DNA from: Bacteroidales bacterium
Lineage (GTDB): Bacteria > Bacteroidota > Bacteroidia > Bacteroidales > Paludibacteraceae
DNA length: 64,000 nucleotides
NCBI GenBank assembly: GCA_012519425.1
Contig: JAAYQF010000026.1
Location: 1 to 64,000 of the forward strand
Direction: 5' to 3'
Each line of letters begins with the position of its first letter. Position 1 is the stretch's first letter. The notes under the pieces were generated by a model. It was not told the origin of the DNA and did no database searches. It worked only from the letters and a program-made list of their open reading frames with translations. Positions 28,710-39,767 of this stretch are shown here, one piece after another. Position numbers and translations under genes: made by a program.

Positions 28710-28871
28710 GGTGTTTTAGAAGTGTCCAAATGCAAGGCACTGAGATTGAGGGCAAAGGAGCATACTGAAGTATGTGACTGAGCCCGTGCTTCGACAGGCT
28801 CAGCAACCATCGAAAGTAACGTGGTTGCTGAGCGAAGTCGAAGTGCAGCAGTTGGGCACTTATGAAACACC
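28710..28871. repeat. MITE/REP-like non-coding element with imperfect terminal inverted repeats and internal palindrome
   Basis: GGTGTTTTAGAAGTGTCCAAATGC (28710-28733) vs reverse complement of 28848-28871 GGTGTTTCATAAGTGCCCAACTGC; internal CTTCGACaggCTCAGCAACCA...TGGTTGCTGAGcgaaGTCGAAG (28789-28843). Confidence 0.6.
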
Positions 28872-29113
28872 GCTGAGTTTGGGCGATTTAGCTGCTTGAA
28901 CGCTAATTTTTCGAGCAAAGCGGGCGCAGTCTTGATTTTTTTTTGCTTCGTTTTTTTAGTCTGATTATCAATTGAATTTAATGTCAGATTGTGTGTCGGC
29001 AGATTTGATTTTTGCGAAGCATGGGTAGATTTTTTTGTTTTTTTCTCTGCATTGGCAAAGCAAGCTTTTTCGCTAAGTTTTGGTTTGAGCGTGGGCTTGC
29101 TGATGTACTTGCT

Positions 29114-29446
29114 TTAGCGTTTGGGTTTATTTGGACTTATCCATATTGATAATAATAAACCAATACCTACAATCACATCAACAATATTCCAAATCTCTCT
29201 ACCAAGCGCTATTTTTAAAAAAGGTTGAAACAGTATAGCCAAACCTCCATATATAATCATCTCTACTTGTTTCCCTTTTTTGTAAGCTTGATAAGCAAGA
29301 ATTGCAAAACCAACAAGACCTGCAAATCTTACAAACTGATAAAAACCGTATGGCATATCCAACAAGCACAGAAAGAAAAGACCTGCAAGAACAACTTTTG
29401 TTATTGTAGACAAATTATTTTTCATCTTTAAAGCTTGAAAAATCAA
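29114..29446 (-). CDS. Small integral membrane protein (DUF6804-like)
   Basis: About three hydrophobic segments (VVLAGLFFLCLLDMPYGFYQFVRFAGLVGFAILAY; MIIYGGLAILFQPF; IVDVIVGIGLLLSIWI). Likely start is MKNNLSTI at 29425, overlapping the TerB-like stop. Confidence 0.6.
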   Translation of the reverse strand: MIFQALKMKNNLSTITKVVLAGLFFLCLLDMPYGFYQFVRFAGLVGFAILAYQAYKKGKQVEMIIYGGLAILFQPFLKIALGREIWNIVDVIVGIGLLLSIWISPNKPKR

Positions 29447-29945
29447 TTGTCTTAATTTCTTTCAATTCGGGGATAGAAATAGTTGAAAGCAAATCACTGA
29501 GGGTTTCATTTTTAACAACGTCCTGTGAGTAGTCTCTATCAAAAAGGTACTCAACTGCACCAAAGCGGTCTCGAATAATTTCATCGTGCAACTCAAGATG
29601 TGAACGAAGAAAACGAATAAATTTAATCTCGTTTTCATCCATTTTTTTATTTGCCATTGCAAGACGTAACGCAACCTCAAGAATTAAAAGCTCCTGAACA
29701 GGGCTTAATTTCGTGGCTTTTAAATATGCATAAAGGTCTTCAATTATGTGTTTTCCTTTTTCTTTAAGAGCAACAAGCAAATCATCTAATTCATCAGATA
29801 AATCAATATCTTTAAAATAGATAGAAGCCTTATTCAGCGCTTTCATTTCCTTAATTTCCATCTCATCGATACACCCATCACAGGCTATCGTGCAAAAGGC
29901 AACTTTAAATAACAAATGTTGAAATTGTTGTTTTTCTAGTGTCAT
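29415..29945 (-). CDS. TerB-like (tellurite-resistance TerB family) protein
   Basis: Helical; LFKVAFCTIACDGCIDEMEIKEMKAL and later LRLAMANKKMDENEIKFI are TerB-like acidic motifs. Confidence 0.62.
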   Translation of the reverse strand: MTLEKQQFQHLLFKVAFCTIACDGCIDEMEIKEMKALNKASIYFKDIDLSDELDDLLVALKEKGKHIIEDLYAYLKATKLSPVQELLILEVALRLAMANKKMDENEIKFIRFLRSHLELHDEIIRDRFGAVEYLFDRDYSQDVVKNETLSDLLSTISIPELKEIKTIDFSSFKDEK

Positions 29946-29947
29946 AT

Positions 29948-31747
29948 TTATTCATTATTTGTAGGACGAAAACCAATACGTGGGCGTTCTTCCTTCATTT
30001 GTAAATCTTGTTTTTCATTATCCCATTTCCTTTTTAAGGCCTCATATTTTCTAATTTCTGTAAGCGAAACTGTAGGTTTATTATCGCTTATTACTTCCAA
30101 AAAAATGGACATTGTAATCCTACCTCTTACCTTCAGAGCTTTTCGGGAAGCTTCGTCTATTAAAAATTTTAAATCACTTGACACGTAGTTCTCTGTCAAT
30201 GAGGCTAATTTGTCATAGTCAAGCCCTAGGTCTATCGGTCTGTCTTTCAAGTAAAGTTTAAACATTGCTGACCTTGCATTCTTGTCAGGTGGCGACAAAT
30301 AAACTGATTTATCCAAACGTCCGGTTCGTAAAATTGCAGGGTCAATTTTTTCAGGACGATTTGTTGCACCAATTACAAAAATTCCTTTTTCTCCACAATT
30401 TGTCATCTGAGCCAAAATCTCATTTACTGCCGAAGCATGCATTTGATGAAGATCTCCTTCTCTTGATGGTGCAATTGCATCTAATTCATCAATAAAAATT
30501 ATTGTTGGCGCTTTTTCTTCTGCTTCTTTGAAAAGTCTTCCAATATTCTCTTGTGTTGCATTAATATATTTACTCTGCAAATCGGAAGGCTTTATCATTA
30601 CAAAATTATACCCAACCTCTTCAGCAAATTTTTGAGCAATAAAAGTTTTTCCACAACCCGGCGGCCCATATAATAACATTCCGTTTAACATTGGAATACC
30701 GTATTCTTTGTATAATTCAGGATCGTTTAAAAAATCTATTACATCTTCTTTGAGTTGTTGTTTAAGGCTTTCCATACCTGCAATTTGATCAAAACCCGTC
30801 CCTTGCTTTTTCTCCTGTTTTCCTCCGGCTTTTACAAAGGTTTTTTGAATGTCATTTGTTTCTATAATCATTTCACGCTTTAACGCTTTGGAAAACTCTT
30901 CTGCGGTTTGAAAACGGTCTTCAATATCAATAGATAAAGCCTTTGTTAATGTGTTTTTTATGTGTTCATCAATTAAATCATCATTCGCAAGGGAAAAATT
31001 TAAAGGTTTACTTCTTGCTGCTTCCAATAATCCTTTCCACTTGTTAATCGGTTGATTTAGGATGTTCTCATTAAAGAAAGGAGGAATACCGAATAGCAAA
31101 TGATACAACAAAGCTCCAATTGAGAATAAATCACTTTGCGGAATAAAAATCCCATTTAGTAATTCAGGCGCAGCATGAAATACCGACAAATACTTAATTG
31201 AAACGCTTTGTCCGTTTTCATGAATAGTCCTCGCTTGTTCAAACCCTGTTAAAATAGGTTTGTCTCTTTTTGACGAATAATCCAGTTTTATTGTATTAGG
31301 ATTTATTCCGTTATGAATTATTGGGTCTGACAGATTATGCAAGTAGTCAATTGCTTCGAGTAGCTCAATAATGATAGGAATTGCAGTATAGGGTGAAAGT
31401 GTTCCTTCTCTTTTTAACCTTTCTGTAAGGGTTTCGCCACTTACAAACTCATAAGACAGAAAAGCAAACTTTTGTTTCTCAATAATGGTTTCGCCTTCTT
31501 CCAAGAGTTTTGGTATATTGTTGTGATTAATTTGATTTAGCAAATTAAGTTGTAATAACTTACCGTTTTCGTCAAAATAAGACGAAGGAAGTGAAGCAAG
31601 ATTAATTAAATCAAGCCTTACAATATTGCCCGAAGTATCTTTTGCCCGATACGATTGGGCAAAAGAATTATTGCCGATTGGAAATTGAATTTCAAATCGA
31701 CCGGCTACAGAAAAACCCTTCTGCAATAAGTTTTCTTTTTCTTGCAT
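29948..31747 (-). CDS. Pseudokinase-AAA+ ATPase fusion protein
   Basis: N-terminal kinase fold with degenerate catalytic residues (HNGINPNTI for HRDLKPEN, LTGFEQA for DFG) but APE and DLFSIGALLYHLLFG present; C-terminal AAA+ GPPGCGKTFIAQKFAEE, TIIFIDELDAIAPSR, GATNRPEKIDPAILRTGRLD. Confidence 0.88.
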   Translation of the reverse strand: MQEKENLLQKGFSVAGRFEIQFPIGNNSFAQSYRAKDTSGNIVRLDLINLASLPSSYFDENGKLLQLNLLNQINHNNIPKLLEEGETIIEKQKFAFLSYEFVSGETLTERLKREGTLSPYTAIPIIIELLEAIDYLHNLSDPIIHNGINPNTIKLDYSSKRDKPILTGFEQARTIHENGQSVSIKYLSVFHAAPELLNGIFIPQSDLFSIGALLYHLLFGIPPFFNENILNQPINKWKGLLEAARSKPLNFSLANDDLIDEHIKNTLTKALSIDIEDRFQTAEEFSKALKREMIIETNDIQKTFVKAGGKQEKKQGTGFDQIAGMESLKQQLKEDVIDFLNDPELYKEYGIPMLNGMLLYGPPGCGKTFIAQKFAEEVGYNFVMIKPSDLQSKYINATQENIGRLFKEAEEKAPTIIFIDELDAIAPSREGDLHQMHASAVNEILAQMTNCGEKGIFVIGATNRPEKIDPAILRTGRLDKSVYLSPPDKNARSAMFKLYLKDRPIDLGLDYDKLASLTENYVSSDLKFLIDEASRKALKVRGRITMSIFLEVISDNKPTVSLTEIRKYEALKRKWDNEKQDLQMKEERPRIGFRPTNNE

Positions 31748-34314
31748 TAGTCTGTTAAAAGGCTATCATCACCTGTAAGTATTGGTTTGTCAACGCCAGG
31801 TAATAGTTTATATAATTCAATCACAATTGGTCTTAAAACTTGTTTACTTGGTCTATTTTGAGCTTTAGCAAGTCCTTCATTAATAAGCATTCTCGCTTTA
31901 TTCCTGTCGCTCCAGTCATGCATATCAAATTCTTCATTAAACTGATGTAAGAGAGAAATCTCTAAGCTCGCACCCAAACCAGCATCTACGATTGTAAAAG
32001 CCATACCTCGCATTGAATCAATTAACTCTTTAGCAACTTTTACATTTTTATCTTTAATTACTTGCGGAATTTGTTCTTTAAATTGTGCAATAGCCTCTTT
32101 AACTCTTTCTTCATTCAAGCCATCAACTTTACCTTCAAATTCTTTAAAAGTCTTTTCTAATTTGTAAAAGGCATCTTTTAACTCCTCCTCTGTTTTTGGC
32201 CACTCAATTGAATCTTGTATATCGTCAAGTTTTCGTAAATTTCTTCTAAGGTTGTCCAATACTTGTTTTTTACGGTCGTAATCACTTCGACCTTGTTCCA
32301 ATAATTTTTCAAGTTCAAAAATCTCGTTTGATAGTTTATTCAAAGTATCTTTATCTATAAAGTCGCTTTCTTGTTTAATGATGTTCAAGGTTTGTTTGGC
32401 TTTTGATATTTCTGTTTCAAGCCAATTTGCATCAATTTCTTTTTGTGTTGAATTATTTGGCACTTCAACATCTTGAGCGAAATTTAAATATGGGAAAAAA
32501 GCAGAAAGTGTTATACGTTCAGATTTATCAACTTTAACAGTCAAATCAACATCACTACCTTCTGGTAAAAGTTCGGGTAAATCCTCACCTGTAATTATTA
32601 CATCATAAACGCGTTCATTGTAAATTGCCCTTGACTCTTCTGCACCATAATCACCTTGATAAACAGGAATTTTAATAAAGTCAGAAGATGAACCCGGGTT
32701 AATTTGTTTTTGTGTCTTCAAACCATTGGCTATGCCAGTTGCAGGTGTTGATTGATTTTTCTCAAGTCCTTTGATTGGTCGAAATACGATTTTTCCACTT
32801 GCTTTGCTCTTTATTTCAATCCCAATATTATATGGTAAGGGTGCACTACCAACTTTTGAACCTTGAATAATTGTAAAATCGTTTGGTTCGCTTGGAATTA
32901 AATCGCCTTGCTCATTATAAACAAAAACATTAAAGGCATTTGCTTTGCCTTCATTTAATTTCACTTCTACAACTTCTCCAACATCGTCAATTTGAATTTT
33001 ACCACTTGACCAAGCCTTGTCAGTTCTTACAACTTCGACAAAACATTTTTCAGGAATTTTTCCCTCCGTTTTGTCTTTAAGAATTTTAATTGTTACAAAT
33101 TCCTCATTTTCAACTGTTGTTGGTTCGTATCCTAAACCAAGTTGAATTTTGGTTTTATCTCGGTTTTTTTCAATTATTTCATCAGAAACATTAACAGTTG
33201 AAGCGTATAATGCCGCACCTTTTGCAACTACTGTCATTGGGTCGTAACTTGTGTCAACTTTTTCGGTTACTTGTTCCTTTAACATTTTTCTCAAGATGGG
33301 AGAATGAGTGGGACCTCCAACTAAAATTAATGTGTCTAAATTATTGCCGTTTAATTTATTCCTTTTAAGTAATGCGTTGCAAATATCAATTGCCTTTTGA
33401 AAAATTGGCTTAACAACGGGAGCAAAAATTGATTCAGTTAGTTCTAAATCCAATTCAATTTCTGTTCCTTCATCATCTTCGGGAAAATCGCCAAGATTTG
33501 ATAAGATATCGGTTGAAGGAGCAAAAGACAGAGCAATTTTGGCATCTTCTGCAAAATCTTTCAGAGCATTCCTAAAATATTCTAATTCACTACCTGATAA
33601 AAAAGTGTCTATTTTAAACTTACTTTTTAGATCCGGAATTAGGATCTCATCAACTATTGCGTAATCAATATTTTTTCCTCCTAAATAGTTGTCTCCTTCA
33701 GTATCTATTACTTTCATTATACCGTCTTCAACTTTTAGCAATGCTGCGTCAAAAGTACCACCACCAAAGTCAAAAACCAACCAAAGACCGTTTTTACTTG
33801 TTGAATCTAAACCGTATGCCATTGAAGCTGCAATAGGTTCTTGCAATAATTCGCAGTGCTCAAAACCTGCAAGTTTTGCGGCTCTTGAAGTTGCATCTTT
33901 TTGATTTATAGTAAATTTTGCAGGAACAGTAATAACAACTGATTTTATTTCTTCGTCTGTAATAAATGATTTTAGCTTTTTTAATACTTCGGAAGATAAT
34001 TCTTCTGAAGTATAATCTTTATTCATATTAGAACTACTATACATTTTGTCAGTTCCCATCGTACGCTTAAACTCTATGAAAGTATTTGCATCTGATTTCA
34101 TGGTTTTTAAGGTGCGTAATCTATCTGAACGAAACTGATTTGCAGCTGCATCACCAGCAATAATTGATTGTTTTTTGTTAAAATTAACACATGAAGACAT
34201 TGTATCTTTCAATGTATCAGTTTTCTTTATTACCGGTTCTCCATTTTCCATTCGGGCAATGGCAGAATTTGTAGTTCCTAAATCTATTCCGTAATCAATT
34301 TTTGTTCTTGCCAT
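31747..34314 (-). CDS. Hsp70/DnaK-like chaperone with long helical C-terminus (855 aa)
   Basis: DYGIDLGTTNSAIARMENGEP, LLQEPIAASMAYGLD, WLVFDFGGGTFDAALLKV, LILVGGPTHSPILRKML. Confidence 0.92.
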   Translation of the reverse strand: MARTKIDYGIDLGTTNSAIARMENGEPVIKKTDTLKDTMSSCVNFNKKQSIIAGDAAANQFRSDRLRTLKTMKSDANTFIEFKRTMGTDKMYSSSNMNKDYTSEELSSEVLKKLKSFITDEEIKSVVITVPAKFTINQKDATSRAAKLAGFEHCELLQEPIAASMAYGLDSTSKNGLWLVFDFGGGTFDAALLKVEDGIMKVIDTEGDNYLGGKNIDYAIVDEILIPDLKSKFKIDTFLSGSELEYFRNALKDFAEDAKIALSFAPSTDILSNLGDFPEDDEGTEIELDLELTESIFAPVVKPIFQKAIDICNALLKRNKLNGNNLDTLILVGGPTHSPILRKMLKEQVTEKVDTSYDPMTVVAKGAALYASTVNVSDEIIEKNRDKTKIQLGLGYEPTTVENEEFVTIKILKDKTEGKIPEKCFVEVVRTDKAWSSGKIQIDDVGEVVEVKLNEGKANAFNVFVYNEQGDLIPSEPNDFTIIQGSKVGSAPLPYNIGIEIKSKASGKIVFRPIKGLEKNQSTPATGIANGLKTQKQINPGSSSDFIKIPVYQGDYGAEESRAIYNERVYDVIITGEDLPELLPEGSDVDLTVKVDKSERITLSAFFPYLNFAQDVEVPNNSTQKEIDANWLETEISKAKQTLNIIKQESDFIDKDTLNKLSNEIFELEKLLEQGRSDYDRKKQVLDNLRRNLRKLDDIQDSIEWPKTEEELKDAFYKLEKTFKEFEGKVDGLNEERVKEAIAQFKEQIPQVIKDKNVKVAKELIDSMRGMAFTIVDAGLGASLEISLLHQFNEEFDMHDWSDRNKARMLINEGLAKAQNRPSKQVLRPIVIELYKLLPGVDKPILTGDDSLLTD

Positions 34315-34335
34315 AATATTTTGATTTTTTAGTTT

Positions 34336-35283
34336 TTACTCGCCTTGACTAACTTCAATTTGTGCTGATTGTATCATAACACCTTTAAAGTTTACTTGTG
34401 GCTTTATTATTCTTGTTATAATTTGCTCATCTGGTTTTAAGTTTTCATCAGGTTTAAAATTAGCTGTAACTTTCATACCAGCATCATAAGGTTTATTTAG
34501 CATATCAACTATCTCATAACCATTACCCTCAAAATTTGCTTGAATACGTTTTACTGATGCTGCTAATTGCTTTAAACCTCTTGTTTCGGCATCCATGTTA
34601 TTGATGTTTTGTTGAATACGGATTATCTCGTCAGCAACTTTTAAAGCTAATGAATGGTCAACATCTTCGACTTTGACCAAAGATGTTTGCTTTTCCTCAT
34701 TCATGAGTTGCATTTGAGTATCAAGTAATTTTATTAACTGACCATCGAGTTTTAATTGTTCTTCTCGTAAAGAATCAGAGGTTTTTTTAATTTGATCTGA
34801 AAGCCCAGTTTTCTCTTTGCCAAGTTGTTTCTTAAGCCAACCAAAAAGAAGGACTGACAACAAAGCGATAAATAATACCGCAATTATCCAATACAAGGTG
34901 TTTTTACTTACAGTTTTACTTAATGTCGAAAGGTCTGCACTTGCTTTATCGCTTGTTTCTTGAATTTTAACACCAAGATTATCTGCGATTGTCTGTAAAT
35001 TGCTATTTGTGTTTGCCAAATTATCTTTCAAAATATTGAGACTATCAGTGGTGGCTGATAGCCTTTTATCAATTTTTTGAATAATGACATTTGCCGTATT
35101 TAACTGATTTGCCAGACTTTTATTCGAGGCTTCAAGTTTTTCGATACTGTTTTGTAACTGTTGAATAGTATCAGTTTTAGCTTGTGCAAATAAAGCAACG
35201 CTAAAAATTCCAATAGCAGTTATTGTTAAAAGTATTTTTCTCATATTATTATTTTTATTCACATTATTCACAAATTGAAACAA
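34336..35283 (-). CDS. Coiled-coil membrane protein of unknown function
   Basis: Signal-like MRKILLTITAIGIFSVALFAQA, coiled-coil, TM YWIIAVLFIALLSVLLFGWLKK, second helical region. Start probably MRKILL at 35244. Confidence 0.7.
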   Translation of the reverse strand: MFQFVNNVNKNNNMRKILLTITAIGIFSVALFAQAKTDTIQQLQNSIEKLEASNKSLANQLNTANVIIQKIDKRLSATTDSLNILKDNLANTNSNLQTIADNLGVKIQETSDKASADLSTLSKTVSKNTLYWIIAVLFIALLSVLLFGWLKKQLGKEKTGLSDQIKKTSDSLREEQLKLDGQLIKLLDTQMQLMNEEKQTSLVKVEDVDHSLALKVADEIIRIQQNINNMDAETRGLKQLAASVKRIQANFEGNGYEIVDMLNKPYDAGMKVTANFKPDENLKPDEQIITRIIKPQVNFKGVMIQSAQIEVSQGE

Positions 35284-36913
35284 TCAAAATAAATAAGCCA
35301 ATACCAATTACCCATAGAATCCACTTTTGAACTGGAGTATCTCCAAAAAATACAATGCCAGTATTTAGTTGCTTAAATAAATCTTTCAGCGTATTTTTAT
35401 TTTTGTTATAATGTTCTCTCTGCTTGTTTGACATATCAAAAACTCCTAAACTTACCGTTGCTCTCCATGCATCTGAAATAACATTTTTAAGCTTTTCTAG
35501 AGAATATTCAGGAGCATAGGGTATATTCTCTCTCAAAAAGCCACAGCTCCAACCTGACATTGATAGTCCACTAAATGGGCCATTTATATAATTAAGATAC
35601 TTGACATAGTTATTTCGTTTTTCCATCGCATCGTTTACAGTAGTAACTATCATCCCTAATGCATTACTAGCCACAGCAGTACTAATTTTAGAATACAATT
35701 CATCATGTGCTCCCAATTTTAATTTCATATTATCAAGACGAGGTTTGCATGAATTTGCAAAATTTGTAGCATTGGAAATTGTATCATCAAGTGATTGAAA
35801 TTCTTCAAGTTTGTCAGTAATAAATTTCAAATCATCTCGTACGATATTCTGTTTATCCCTGTAGGGTTTATCGGCTATCCATTCTTCAATAATTTTAAGA
35901 TTTTCATCAATTCTATTACGAACTTGTCCATTGGTGGAAATATCTTTAGCTAATTTTACAACTTTATATGCTGTATCACCTGGGTCTATATCATTCTTTT
36001 TTTGATGTACATTAAAATATTCAATAGCACATTGCAGAATTTCATTTGCCAATTTATTGGCAATCATTTGATATTGTACATTATTTGAACCCCAAACGTT
36101 TTTTAGAAAGACCAAATCTTCTTTTGTGTTTTTATAAAGTTCTTCGCCATATTCCTCTGCATCGTTTGGGTTATCGTTTCTTTTTTGTTTAGTAATTTCA
36201 ATTTGGTTTTCAATATTGTTTAGAGGTCTGTCAGTAAACTTGCCCGAAACATATTGTTTTATTTCATTAGGGAAAGAGCTAAATGCATTAATTAATTGAC
36301 TTGATTTTATGCCATTGGGTTTATTCAGGTATGGTTTAACTATTTGCAGAATCTCTTCAGCAAACTCTTTCAATATAATATCACGATTTAACGAAATACC
36401 TTCTCCTATTACTGTAGTAACAAAATTATTGAACACATCCGACAAAATTAGTTTTCCTTTTAAATCAATAGAAGCTGAAAACTTTTCAGGGTCAAACGAG
36501 CCATTATAAGTAGCAATTCCAAGTTGAAGTGTCGAAAGGTTGCTTATTGCAGCGAAGTTTTTAGCCGTTACCGCTGAATCTTTTAAAGTTTTTTCCCAAA
36601 TCTCGGCAGCCTTTTCAATATGCCCTTCCTTAAGATTATCCAATGCAGCTTCGTCAATATGTCCGCTGTTTAAAAACCAAAAAAGAGCATAATGAACTTT
36701 GTTTTTTGCTTGTTCTATTTTACTTGCCGCTTCTTGTACCTTTTCTGCGTTGCGAACAACTTCTCCAAAAAACGAAAAATCATAGTCAAACGCCTTCGTT
36801 TTTCCAACTTCTGCAAATCTCTTTATGGTTGCAATTTGCCTTTGAAGTTCCCTTTCAGATGAGTTTCCAAAAAGTCCAAGCGTTCTGTAGGGATTATTTA
36901 TTACTACATTCAT
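35264..36913 (-). CDS. Uncharacterised protein with divergent J-domain-like N-terminus and C-terminal TM anchor
   Basis: NNPYRTLGLFGNSSERELQRQIATIKRFAEVG resembles J-domain helices I-II without HPD; C-terminal WILWVIGIGLFILIVSI. ATG at 36913 preferred over TTG at 36928. Confidence 0.65.
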   Translation of the reverse strand: MNVVINNPYRTLGLFGNSSERELQRQIATIKRFAEVGKTKAFDYDFSFFGEVVRNAEKVQEAASKIEQAKNKVHYALFWFLNSGHIDEAALDNLKEGHIEKAAEIWEKTLKDSAVTAKNFAAISNLSTLQLGIATYNGSFDPEKFSASIDLKGKLILSDVFNNFVTTVIGEGISLNRDIILKEFAEEILQIVKPYLNKPNGIKSSQLINAFSSFPNEIKQYVSGKFTDRPLNNIENQIEITKQKRNDNPNDAEEYGEELYKNTKEDLVFLKNVWGSNNVQYQMIANKLANEILQCAIEYFNVHQKKNDIDPGDTAYKVVKLAKDISTNGQVRNRIDENLKIIEEWIADKPYRDKQNIVRDDLKFITDKLEEFQSLDDTISNATNFANSCKPRLDNMKLKLGAHDELYSKISTAVASNALGMIVTTVNDAMEKRNNYVKYLNYINGPFSGLSMSGWSCGFLRENIPYAPEYSLEKLKNVISDAWRATVSLGVFDMSNKQREHYNKNKNTLKDLFKQLNTGIVFFGDTPVQKWILWVIGIGLFILIVSICE

Positions 36914-36924
36914 ATCTGTTGAGT

Positions 36925-37092
36925 TCAAAATGTTATTGTTCTTAATCGTAGATCAATTGAAAATTGGCTCTTATGGCTTTGCGTAAGATTAGGATTGTGT
37001 GTCGCCTTTTCTCGTTCTATATCTGTCGGTAATGTTATTATATTTTCATTTTTTAAAGTCTGTTTATCAGGGTTGAAGTGTCTTTTTACCAT
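36925..37092 (-). CDS. Putative 55-aa small ORF
   Basis: Reverse-strand ATG at 37092 gives MVKRHFNPDKQTLKNENIITLPTDIEREKATHNPNLTQSHKSQFSIDLRLRTITF*; TGA lies 11 nt before the next ATG. Below the track length cutoff. Confidence 0.35.
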   Translation of the reverse strand: MVKRHFNPDKQTLKNENIITLPTDIEREKATHNPNLTQSHKSQFSIDLRLRTITF

Positions 37093-37145
37093 TACTTATA
37101 ACAGTTGAGTGTAGCAGCAGTAAGGGATTGCGGAATAGTTTTCTG

Positions 37146-37694
37146 TCAATCGAGACAAAAACTTGAGCGGGCCACAATGCTTGTCCCTGGAGAAACCCTT
37201 ACGGCATTTACATTTTGTTGGCAACTGGTGTTCTTGTCCTTATGGTTAATAAGAATTTCTATATTTTTTGATTTTTTTTTACTTGAGCTTATACTTTCAA
37301 CTAATTTTTGATTTAAGTTGTGTGAATATGGTGTCCCAAATTCGGGCTTATACAAAATTTCAAAGTAACTGTCGGTATTAAATTTAGCTAAGCCAATATT
37401 GTATTTTTTAAATAATTCTAAGTTGTTTAATGCGGCATTAGCACTTTTACTTGAAAGTACTACATAAGAGATATTTGAAAAGCTTTTGTAACGGAAAGCT
37501 TGTTTAGCTGCTTTCTTCCAATTTTTTAGTTTCAACTCAAAAGAAATTATGGAAATTTCTTGTTTTTGTTTGATATAAAATACAAAGTCAGGAATGCCAA
37601 ATAAACCTTGACATTCTTTGAGATAGGCATTTCCGAAATTTGCTTTCAGATATTTCTCAAACATTAACGACATTTCTAATTCCGTTTGAAACAT
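37146..37694 (-). CDS. PD-(D/E)XK nuclease-like protein
   Basis: GIPDFVFYIKQKQEISIISFELKLKNWKKAAKQAFRYK fits PD-Xn-(D/E)XK followed by a QAxRYK helix. Confidence 0.6.
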   Translation of the reverse strand: MFQTELEMSLMFEKYLKANFGNAYLKECQGLFGIPDFVFYIKQKQEISIISFELKLKNWKKAAKQAFRYKSFSNISYVVLSSKSANAALNNLELFKKYNIGLAKFNTDSYFEILYKPEFGTPYSHNLNQKLVESISSSKKKSKNIEILINHKDKNTSCQQNVNAVRVSPGTSIVARSSFCLD

Positions 37695-37696
37695 TA

Positions 37697-38863
37697 TTAT
37701 TTGGTTAATTCTTTTTGAAAAGCATTAATAACATTGAACCAAGTGGGCAAATGGGAACCATCGCTATTCTCATCCAAAAGGACTTCATTTTCTATTTTCT
37801 TGAACAAGGTTAAAGCATTTTTTATTTTGCATTTCAGCTCTTCAATTCTGCCTTCTTGTGTAGAAGGTAAACTTTTTATTTGTCTGTCGAACACATAGAA
37901 ATAATGCTTATATGGTTCAGACTTTGCAAAATGCCACTTAAATTCAGGAGTAAACATCAGTGGTCTATATTCTGAATCGTCAAAGTAATTTGCATAATCG
38001 GGCATTAATTTTTTCATTGCTTGAATATATTCGTAATCTACCCATTGCAAAAGATAACTACTGTATAATCTTGCATTGGGTGCCCTCATTTGGCTTTTTT
38101 CCATATCTTGGAAGCGTTTGATTCCAAATGAACGCAAGTTTTCATAAGACCCAATTGTAACAGAATCGGGCATCGCAATACTATATAAAAGAGCTTCGGT
38201 GTTACTATAACCCAAATGAACTTCCATTTGATTATCTTTTAAAACTTTAATAAACTTTAAAGCATTTAAAAGGTAATCGAAATCTTTAATTTGTTTACTT
38301 GTAAAGTTGTTTTCAAGGATCAGATAAACACCTTCAATATTTTGATGTCCTGTAATCCAGTTTAGAACTTCATTTCGTTTTTCTTCATCCGAAAGCATTA
38401 TTGTTTTTACAATTACTGAAAGGAGAATCTTTTTTTGAATATTTTTATTCCTAATATAATCGCAAAACGGGGTCACAAAATAATCAGTGCTTTGAGAAAA
38501 AAAAGTGGTCGGATTATCAGTATAATATCTTGATGGGATTATTAAATACTCAAAATTATTTTGTACTTGGTAATCTACACACAATTGAGCCAATTGAATG
38601 TGACTGTTATCTAAATCGGGTGTTGCAAAGTCTGGTTTTATATTACCAGGGAAATAAGGGTAAGTATCTAAAGTTCCTTTTGCCTCATATAATAAATAAA
38701 GTTGAGGGTCAAGAAATCCTGAATGTTTCAGTTTAACATCTAATGCTAATAGTTTATCAGCATCAATGTTTATGGGAGAATAAATCAAACCATTTCCAAC
38801 TCCATTTAAGAAACTTTCAATATTCCATTTATATCTAAATCCCGTTTGATGATATACTTTCAT
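37697..38863 (-). CDS. Uncharacterised 388-aa protein, possibly alpha/beta (TIM)-barrel-like
   Basis: Alternating beta/alpha pattern (YLIIPSRYY, KILLSVIVKTIML, GVYLILENN, VHLGYSNTEALLYSIAMPDSVTIGSYENLRSF); no family recognised. Confidence 0.55.
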   Translation of the reverse strand: MKVYHQTGFRYKWNIESFLNGVGNGLIYSPINIDADKLLALDVKLKHSGFLDPQLYLLYEAKGTLDTYPYFPGNIKPDFATPDLDNSHIQLAQLCVDYQVQNNFEYLIIPSRYYTDNPTTFFSQSTDYFVTPFCDYIRNKNIQKKILLSVIVKTIMLSDEEKRNEVLNWITGHQNIEGVYLILENNFTSKQIKDFDYLLNALKFIKVLKDNQMEVHLGYSNTEALLYSIAMPDSVTIGSYENLRSFGIKRFQDMEKSQMRAPNARLYSSYLLQWVDYEYIQAMKKLMPDYANYFDDSEYRPLMFTPEFKWHFAKSEPYKHYFYVFDRQIKSLPSTQEGRIEELKCKIKNALTLFKKIENEVLLDENSDGSHLPTWFNVINAFQKELTK

Positions 38864-38864
38864 A

Positions 38865-39668
38865 CTAAATTTGTTTTGCGATAAAAGCGTTTAACATCTT
38901 ATAATTTCTGAACCTTTCGTAAGGTTGCGTTTGCAAGGTTTTATTTGCAAGTTCTACAATTACTCCATCACGTTTTTTTGTATCAGTTTCTACAACATAT
39001 TTGTTCTGCATTATATTTTCTACAATTGAGAATTGATTTCCAACACAAGCAGGGTCATACGGATGGACACCTAAATACAGTTCCAGTACAATAATTCCTA
39101 GACTAAAAAAATCAGTTCGTGGGTCAATTAAATTTTTATTGTTAGCTAGTTGTTCAGGTGCTGCATAGATTGGAGTACAGGGTCCCATCGGTGAAATTGT
39201 TTTAGTCAGTGATTCTAAATCTAAAAAACGCGCAATGCCTAAATCAATAATGCAGGGCATACCATTAGGGCGAATAATAATGTTTTCAGGTTTTAAATCT
39301 CTATGAACAATATTTTTATCCCAAATAACAGAAAGTCCTTTTATCAATGAATTGAAAAGAGTGAATATTTCTTTAGTTGTTTTAAATTCTGTCATTACTT
39401 CTCGTAATACCTTGCCTTCAATATAATCCTCTACAATTTCAAATTTTTTAGTTTTTACATCAATGTTAAAATGGTGTTGTTTCGGATAAAAGTCAGATTC
39501 TAATTCAGAAAGCAACTCCACCTCACGTTTAATTCTTTCAAGCGATGTGAAACTTTTTATTGTCCCCTCTTTAATGACCACCTTACCAACTTTGGAGTGT
39601 TCAGCCAAGTGAACTATTTTCTGTCCGCCTTGTGGTAATTCTTTTATTATTGTACAATCTCTAATCAT
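38865..39668 (-). CDS. Serine/threonine protein kinase
   Basis: LPQGGQKIVHLAEH, VVIK lysine, IVHRDLKPENIII, IIDLGIAR, YAAPEQL, DFFSLGIIVLELYLG. Confidence 0.93.
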   Translation of the reverse strand: MIRDCTIIKELPQGGQKIVHLAEHSKVGKVVIKEGTIKSFTSLERIKREVELLSELESDFYPKQHHFNIDVKTKKFEIVEDYIEGKVLREVMTEFKTTKEIFTLFNSLIKGLSVIWDKNIVHRDLKPENIIIRPNGMPCIIDLGIARFLDLESLTKTISPMGPCTPIYAAPEQLANNKNLIDPRTDFFSLGIIVLELYLGVHPYDPACVGNQFSIVENIMQNKYVVETDTKKRDGVIVELANKTLQTQPYERFRNYKMLNAFIAKQI

Positions 39669-39672
39669 ATTG

Positions 39673-39680
39673 CAAAGTTA
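39673..39680 (-). promoter_or_regulatory. -7 element TAACTTTG directly upstream of the kinase ATG
   Basis: TANNTTTG consensus, 4 nt before the ATG at 39668. Confidence 0.5.
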
Positions 39681-39767
39681 ATATTAAATCTTCAAATCTT
39701 CTTTATCAAGACAAAAAAATGAAGAGGGATGACAAGGTCACAAGGTCTCCGGAACTGATTTATAATA

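Follow-up and report, generated by a model that had tools for sequence, protein, structure and literature searches.

The window, by which we mean the whole 64,000-nucleotide stretch of DNA that was analysed, carries on its minus strand a tight train of ten open reading frames (ORFs), all of which were confirmed at the coordinates given here. The junctions were re-read and are as the initial annotation had described them: the kinase gene and the gene for a 388-aa protein meet at TAG-T-ATG, the latter is separated by 2 nt from the nuclease gene, the Hsp70 and AAA+ genes share a TAATG, and the TerB-like and DUF6804 genes overlap.

In the direction of transcription, the train opens with three genes, hereafter module A. 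These encode an active-looking Ser/Thr protein kinase of 267 aa (38865..39668; Pkinase, 1.7e-29, 103.5 bits), in which the motifs VVIK, HRDLKPEN and DLG are present, a 388-aa protein of unknown fold, without a match in Pfam, NCBIfam or PADLOC (37697..38863), and a PD-(D/E)XK-like nuclease of 182 aa (37146..37694). After a 55-aa ORF (36925..37092) comes a core of five genes, encoding a J-like protein of 554 aa with a C-terminal transmembrane (TM) helix (35264..36928), a predicted transmembrane GrpE (34336..35283), an Hsp70 of 855 aa (31747..34314), a kinase-like–AAA+ protein of 599 aa resembling Cdc48/VCP (29948..31747), and a TerB-like helical protein of 176 aa (29415..29945). The train closes with a frequent partner of the core, a small DUF6804 membrane protein of 110 aa (29114..29446; 7.2e-35, 119.5 bits) with three hydrophobic segments. 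The domain calls made from the sequence hold for the kinase, the Hsp70 (225.8 bits), the kinase-like–AAA+ protein (Pkinase and AAA, 77.8 and 132.9 bits) and DUF6804, whereas two others are weaker: the nuclease call is backed by a faint HSDR_N_2 hint and a readable PD...ExK...Q pattern (here PD..ELK..Q), and the TerB call by a match to PF05099 of 22.6 bits, below the cut-off of 24.4. The 55-aa ORF, listed among the genes of the train, exists as an ORF but is doubtful as a gene and belongs to no family; its DNA may instead be a leader of the core, since it is ~82-87% conserved 5' of the core in two relatives (L045 and L035), whose homology to the region upstream of the core ends near window position 37106.

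The ten ORFs lie within an acquired island of ~10.75 kb (28958..39705, no strand assigned; limits good to a few bases), delimited by an empty site and by GC content. The sister genome G593 (L119), which is ~90% identical, lacks the island: its alignment with the window runs at about this identity to 28652, also covers 28875-28957 and resumes at 39706. Because the alignment breaks at 28957 and restarts at 39706, ~10.75 kb was gained as one block between rsfS and a 568-aa TPR gene, which in ~14 congeners are adjacent, no more than a few hundred bases apart. The interruption of housekeeping synteny, previously read from the window, is proven by this empty site and adjacency. GC content is 32.7% in the island against 39.6% in the remainder of the window, with none of the 5-kb stretches sampled outside the island below 36.5%, and inspection by eye found no clear direct repeats at the island ends. 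The repeat element placed at the 3' border is present, as a copy of a ~90-nt intergenic repeat split by ~58 nt (28740-28873), but it is genus-wide, with ~40 copies in the source genome, and lies outside the cassette, so it was ruled out as a cassette border.

The core proteins of the window are mostly 80-94% identical to those of metagenome-assembled genomes (MAGs) assigned to Cyclobacteriaceae, Ignavibacteria and Chloroherpeton. The TPR gene next to the island on the chromosome, by contrast, reaches just 57-66% identity in most congeners. Misbinning of a single MAG is possible, yet several MAGs agree, and the identities support horizontal acquisition of the core. Together with the low-GC island and the empty site, they bear out the view of a mobile, acquired cluster. 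A plasmid search gave one match, in Haliscomenobacter, and no core was found in phage or viral collections.

A profile of the C-terminal half of the Hsp70 was used in one scan of species-representative genomes, which returned 115 relatives, and 80 loci were examined. The exact order J-like, GrpE-like, Hsp70, kinase-like–AAA+ and TerB-like on one strand was found in 50 loci, mostly from Bacteroidota, with median intergenic gaps of -1 to +15 nt; other orders mostly reflect contig-end cuts, duplicated genes or a last gene that was not recovered. The core ranges over Bacteroidales, Flavobacteriales, Saprospirales, Cytophagales and a few MAGs from other phyla, so that its genes co-occur well beyond close relatives, but it is sparse, being present in 6 of 197 genomes of the order and ~6 of 396 of the phylum (strong matches only). 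Isolates with the core include Flavobacterium omnivorum, Maribacter sp. MMG018 and Bacteroides sp. GM023. DUF6804 homologues number 23 in 23 loci and mostly lie directly 3' of the core. Many loci carry at least one additional gene between Hsp70 and AAA+, for example an accessory gene with a CpXC zinc-binding domain (L101:12548-13069, with similar genes in six loci) or, elsewhere, a KilA-N-like or lipoprotein-like gene; SH3-like, zinc-ribbon and further small proteins are likewise encoded by accessory genes. Five loci (L036, L060, L077, L078 and L079) hold a second, diverged Hsp70 within the operon.

This conservation excludes module A. None of its genes was found near the other core loci examined, and core homology to the closest relatives starts near 37106, just beyond the nuclease gene. 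A locus in genome G336 (L123) has homologues of all three alongside a PP2C phosphatase, but not the core; here the 388-aa homologue (~26% identical) is paired with the same kinase and the nuclease is 41% identical over 92 aa. The suggestion that the three upstream genes are separable is therefore upheld, and module A, seen only in the window and at this second locus, was ruled out as part of the core. The L123 kinase/388-aa/PD-(D/E)XK-like/PP2C phosphatase island is small, lies between apparent metabolic genes (L123:9168-12405) and is a possible stand-alone conflict system.

The first core protein matches J domains by profile (P=1.2e-4 over 64 columns), while negative controls with the reversed sequence and other windows gave P values of 0.13-0.46. 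It is classed as J-like rather than as a true J-protein because the HPD motif is absent from all 82 copies, and for the same reason it may fail to stimulate Hsp70. A confident AlphaFold2 (AF2) model shows an all-helical body, for which a fold search with the whole protein retrieved generic helical repeats and no confident match. The TM helix of the window copy spans residues 536-554; in the family, 42 of 71 C-termini carry such a helix and 20 a CFI-box-like end.

The second core protein had been described as a coiled-coil TM protein; both features are confirmed, and a GrpE fold can now be added. In a Foldseek search of the PDB with its AF2 model (pLDDT 86.8), the first 12 matches were all GrpE (E 1e-5 to 5e-3), with low TM-scores (0.19-0.25 on the query), probably owing to a different placement of the long helix. 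The comparison with GrpE by hhalign, collinear over 85 columns almost to the C-terminus, gave P=0.077 against 0.43 for the reversed control, and the Pfam GrpE family was matched by 9 of 63 members, where a coiled-coil signal is possible. Since the sequence-profile match is this weak, the identification as a transmembrane GrpE rests on the predicted fold. The protein departs from a soluble cytosolic GrpE in that nearly all of the 68 copies have a hydrophobic TM segment in mid-protein. In the window copy, hydrophobic segments lie at residues 17-35 (N-terminal signal/anchor) and 132-150; the first of these and the TM helix around residue 140 would place the coiled coil on the outer side of the membrane, leaving the GrpE domain cytosolic. 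Translation probably starts at Met14 (35244), which is nearly invariant.

In the third protein the Hsp70 family match is confined to residues 9-372 of 855 (1.1e-66). The actin-like ATPase domain is intact, with catalytic residues near-invariant in 76 copies and DnaK as the best PDB relatives, while the C-terminal half is divergent and no substrate-binding domain was recognised at sequence level. The canonical dnaK, dnaJ and grpE were not found in the source MAG (G000), but for grpE/dnaJ this is probably an assembly gap, as its contig C114 begins within the region syntenic to grpE-dnaJ. The idea that the cassette had replaced the canonical chaperones was not retained.

The AAA+ domain of the fourth protein has VCP/Cdc48 as its closest solved structures, and Walker A, Walker B, the Arg finger and an aromatic pore loop are found in essentially all of 74 copies. 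Its kinase-like domain was scored at four diagnostic positions, the VAIK Lys, HRD Asp, Asn and DFG Asp. These read D-G-T-G in the window and in four close relatives, K-E-N-D in 51 copies, the family usually having HNE in place of HRD, and the complete K-D-N-D in 9 (L046, L047, L048, L049, L050, L077, L078, L106 and L111). With all four residues lost, the window copy is a predicted dead kinase, and the label 'pseudokinase' fits it but not the family, which may hold both active and dead kinases. Phosphorylation control, which had been proposed for the machine, is not established: the window's kinase-like domain has lost these residues, and the kinase that looks active is encoded in module A, which is separable. 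For the TerB-like protein, the sub-threshold match is accompanied by a conserved DG-x-I-D..E motif in the family and by a homologue on NC_015512 annotated as TerB family.

Taken together, the core would form a dedicated membrane-tethered J-like/Hsp70/GrpE triad with a Cdc48-like unfoldase and TerB, in which the chaperone cycle would be nearly complete because one component is the predicted transmembrane GrpE. The Hsp70, the GrpE fold, the J-like profile and the TM segments all support the membrane-associated chaperone cluster first proposed. Like DnaK-DnaJ-GrpE, it unites in one operon an Hsp70 whose ATPase is intact with partners of GrpE fold and of J-like type; unlike that system, it has membrane-bound GrpE and J parts, no HPD, a different C-terminal half in its Hsp70, and AAA+ and TerB as additions. 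Pam16, too, is HPD-less. In the mitochondrial PAM motor (Pam16/Pam18, mtHsp70 and GrpEL1; PMC12987570), tethered J and J-like proteins run Hsp70 and GrpE at the membrane, whereas the cassette comes without a translocase or an HPD-containing partner, its GrpE spans the membrane, and an AAA+ protein is present. DjlA (PMC11709261) is a membrane co-chaperone capable of switching on the Rcs envelope-stress phosphorelay; it combines a membrane anchor with TerB-like and J domains and acts with DnaK and GrpE, while in the cassette TerB and the J-like part are encoded as two proteins, accompanied by an Hsp70 and a GrpE of the cassette's own. The PAM motor and DjlA may serve as analogies for how the cassette works. 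The AAA+ domain comes closest, among solved structures, to Cdc48/VCP and VAT, from which the cassette protein differs by its single AAA+ domain and by a kinase-like N-terminal domain in place of the N-domain. Hsp70-type chaperones also occur in predicted conflict systems, namely NTP-dependent systems with HSP70/GrpE/DnaJ (PMC7159879) and CoCoNuTs (PMC11090510), but these are centred on GTPases, tubulin or McrB, lack TerB and have another gene set.

PADLOC 2023, NCBIfam and Pfam gave no match to the set as a whole, nor did the open literature searched yield a description of it, and within these sources the system stands as undescribed. Among PADLOC models, only generic kinase and AAA domains match, with none for Hsp70 and TerB and weak ones for the J-like and GrpE-like proteins; the labels PD-T4-6 and IetA were ruled out as resting on common domains only. 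The transmembrane GrpE identity of the coiled-coil protein and the loss of HPD in all 82 J-like copies are new here.

Defence genes adjoin the core in part of its range. In L043 a BREX operon encloses the core, which is flanked by brxC and pglX, all on the same strand (L043:1411-18509), with pglZ further along that contig; in L010 it adjoins BREX, and on the Haliscomenobacter plasmid it abuts brxL and pglZ. None of brxA/B/C, pglX or pglZ lies inside the core itself, though it adjoins or sits in BREX in L010 and L043. Other neighbours are GajA-GajB (Gabija; L039), HsdR (L040 and L069), HsdM (L070), a type I HsdR/HsdM pair (L076), PbeA/PbeC (L055), a type II methylase with a restriction enzyme (L057) and restriction-like genes (L063). 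The upstream slot, filled by module A in the window, holds a STAND NTPase in L035, a DpdF-like helicase in L045, HsdR in L040 and BrxC in L043, so the core has an exchangeable neighbour that is often a defence gene. Approximately 12 of some 30 non-gut loci, picked by eye, have defence neighbours. At E≤1e-15, 114 random flanking genes matched 137 PADLOC families, each in at most two members, and 114 control genes matched 8, a contrast that is overstated because one gene can match many models. Defence is not the general context of the core, since metabolic genes surround the majority of gut copies. The defence or envelope-stress role suggested at the outset is not established; it draws on gene neighbourhood, a signal that is strong for one section of the family but weak among the gut Bacteroidales.

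That the core is a chance neighbourhood of unrelated genes, each of whose domains is common singly, is scarcely conceivable: the gene order is far beyond chance, and its constancy, with that of the strand, in 50 diverged loci and the acquisition as one block refute this for the five core genes, while the pairing of module A with the core was seen in the source genome alone. The core might itself be an anti-phage defence system, its chaperone machine sensing infection and, in the window, the kinase and nuclease executing the response. Mobility and patchy occurrence (6/197 genomes of the order), the ~12 non-gut loci beside or inside known defence systems, the PADLOC contrast, the PD-(D/E)XK-like nuclease in the window and the requirement for DnaJ in phage sensing by bNACHT25 (PMC12169576) would all suit such a role, but neither a nuclease nor a toxin was recognised in the core by itself, the loci have no effector in common, gut Bacteroidales copies lie among metabolic genes and phage and viral collections lack it, and we regard this as rather unlikely.

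We hold open, somewhat more readily but still tentatively, an accessory operon for envelope stress or membrane-protein quality control, unrelated to phages and found in islands because it is mobile. The predicted transmembrane GrpE with its probable extracytoplasmic coiled coil, the membrane J-like protein, DUF6804 and the accessory SH3-like, zinc-ribbon and other small proteins agree with it, as does the combination of TerB and J domains in DjlA (PMC11709261); the copy lodged between brxC and pglX and the recurrent proximity of restriction systems, on the other hand, go beyond what control regions show. The reading we prefer, and consider reasonably probable, is that the island is a mobile operon for a membrane-tethered protein-remodelling machine, which in part of its range is plugged into defence operons.

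In such a remodelling machine, the J-like and GrpE-like proteins would hold Hsp70 at the inner membrane, and the extracytoplasmic coiled coil of the latter would couple an envelope signal to nucleotide exchange. Client proteins at the membrane that are misfolded, aggregated or foreign could then go from Hsp70 to the AAA+ ring, to be unfolded or extracted there, with the kinase-like domain and TerB as putative adapters. Within defence operons, in part of its range, the cassette might assemble, activate or disassemble immune complexes; in the window it would have travelled with a separate kinase-388-aa-nuclease module. A bolder extension, in which a portable, membrane-tethered chaperone-unfoldase cassette acts as shared sensor or activator for immune systems as unrelated as BREX, Gabija, restriction-modification, STAND and kinase-nuclease systems, with an extracytoplasmic sensor domain gating Hsp70 nucleotide exchange, is speculative and in our judgement improbable.

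We class the core as a probable Hsp70 machine, rebuilt at the membrane and joined by a Cdc48-like unfoldase. That one copy lies within a BREX operon prompts the question whether phage defences draw on chaperones of their own. By bringing a J-like protein devoid of HPD together with TerB and the Cdc48-like unfoldase in a single mobile operon, the core would represent a dedicated machine that is testable gene by gene, and a membrane-spanning GrpE would constitute a new form of Hsp70 control, in which a signal from outside could set the exchange step.
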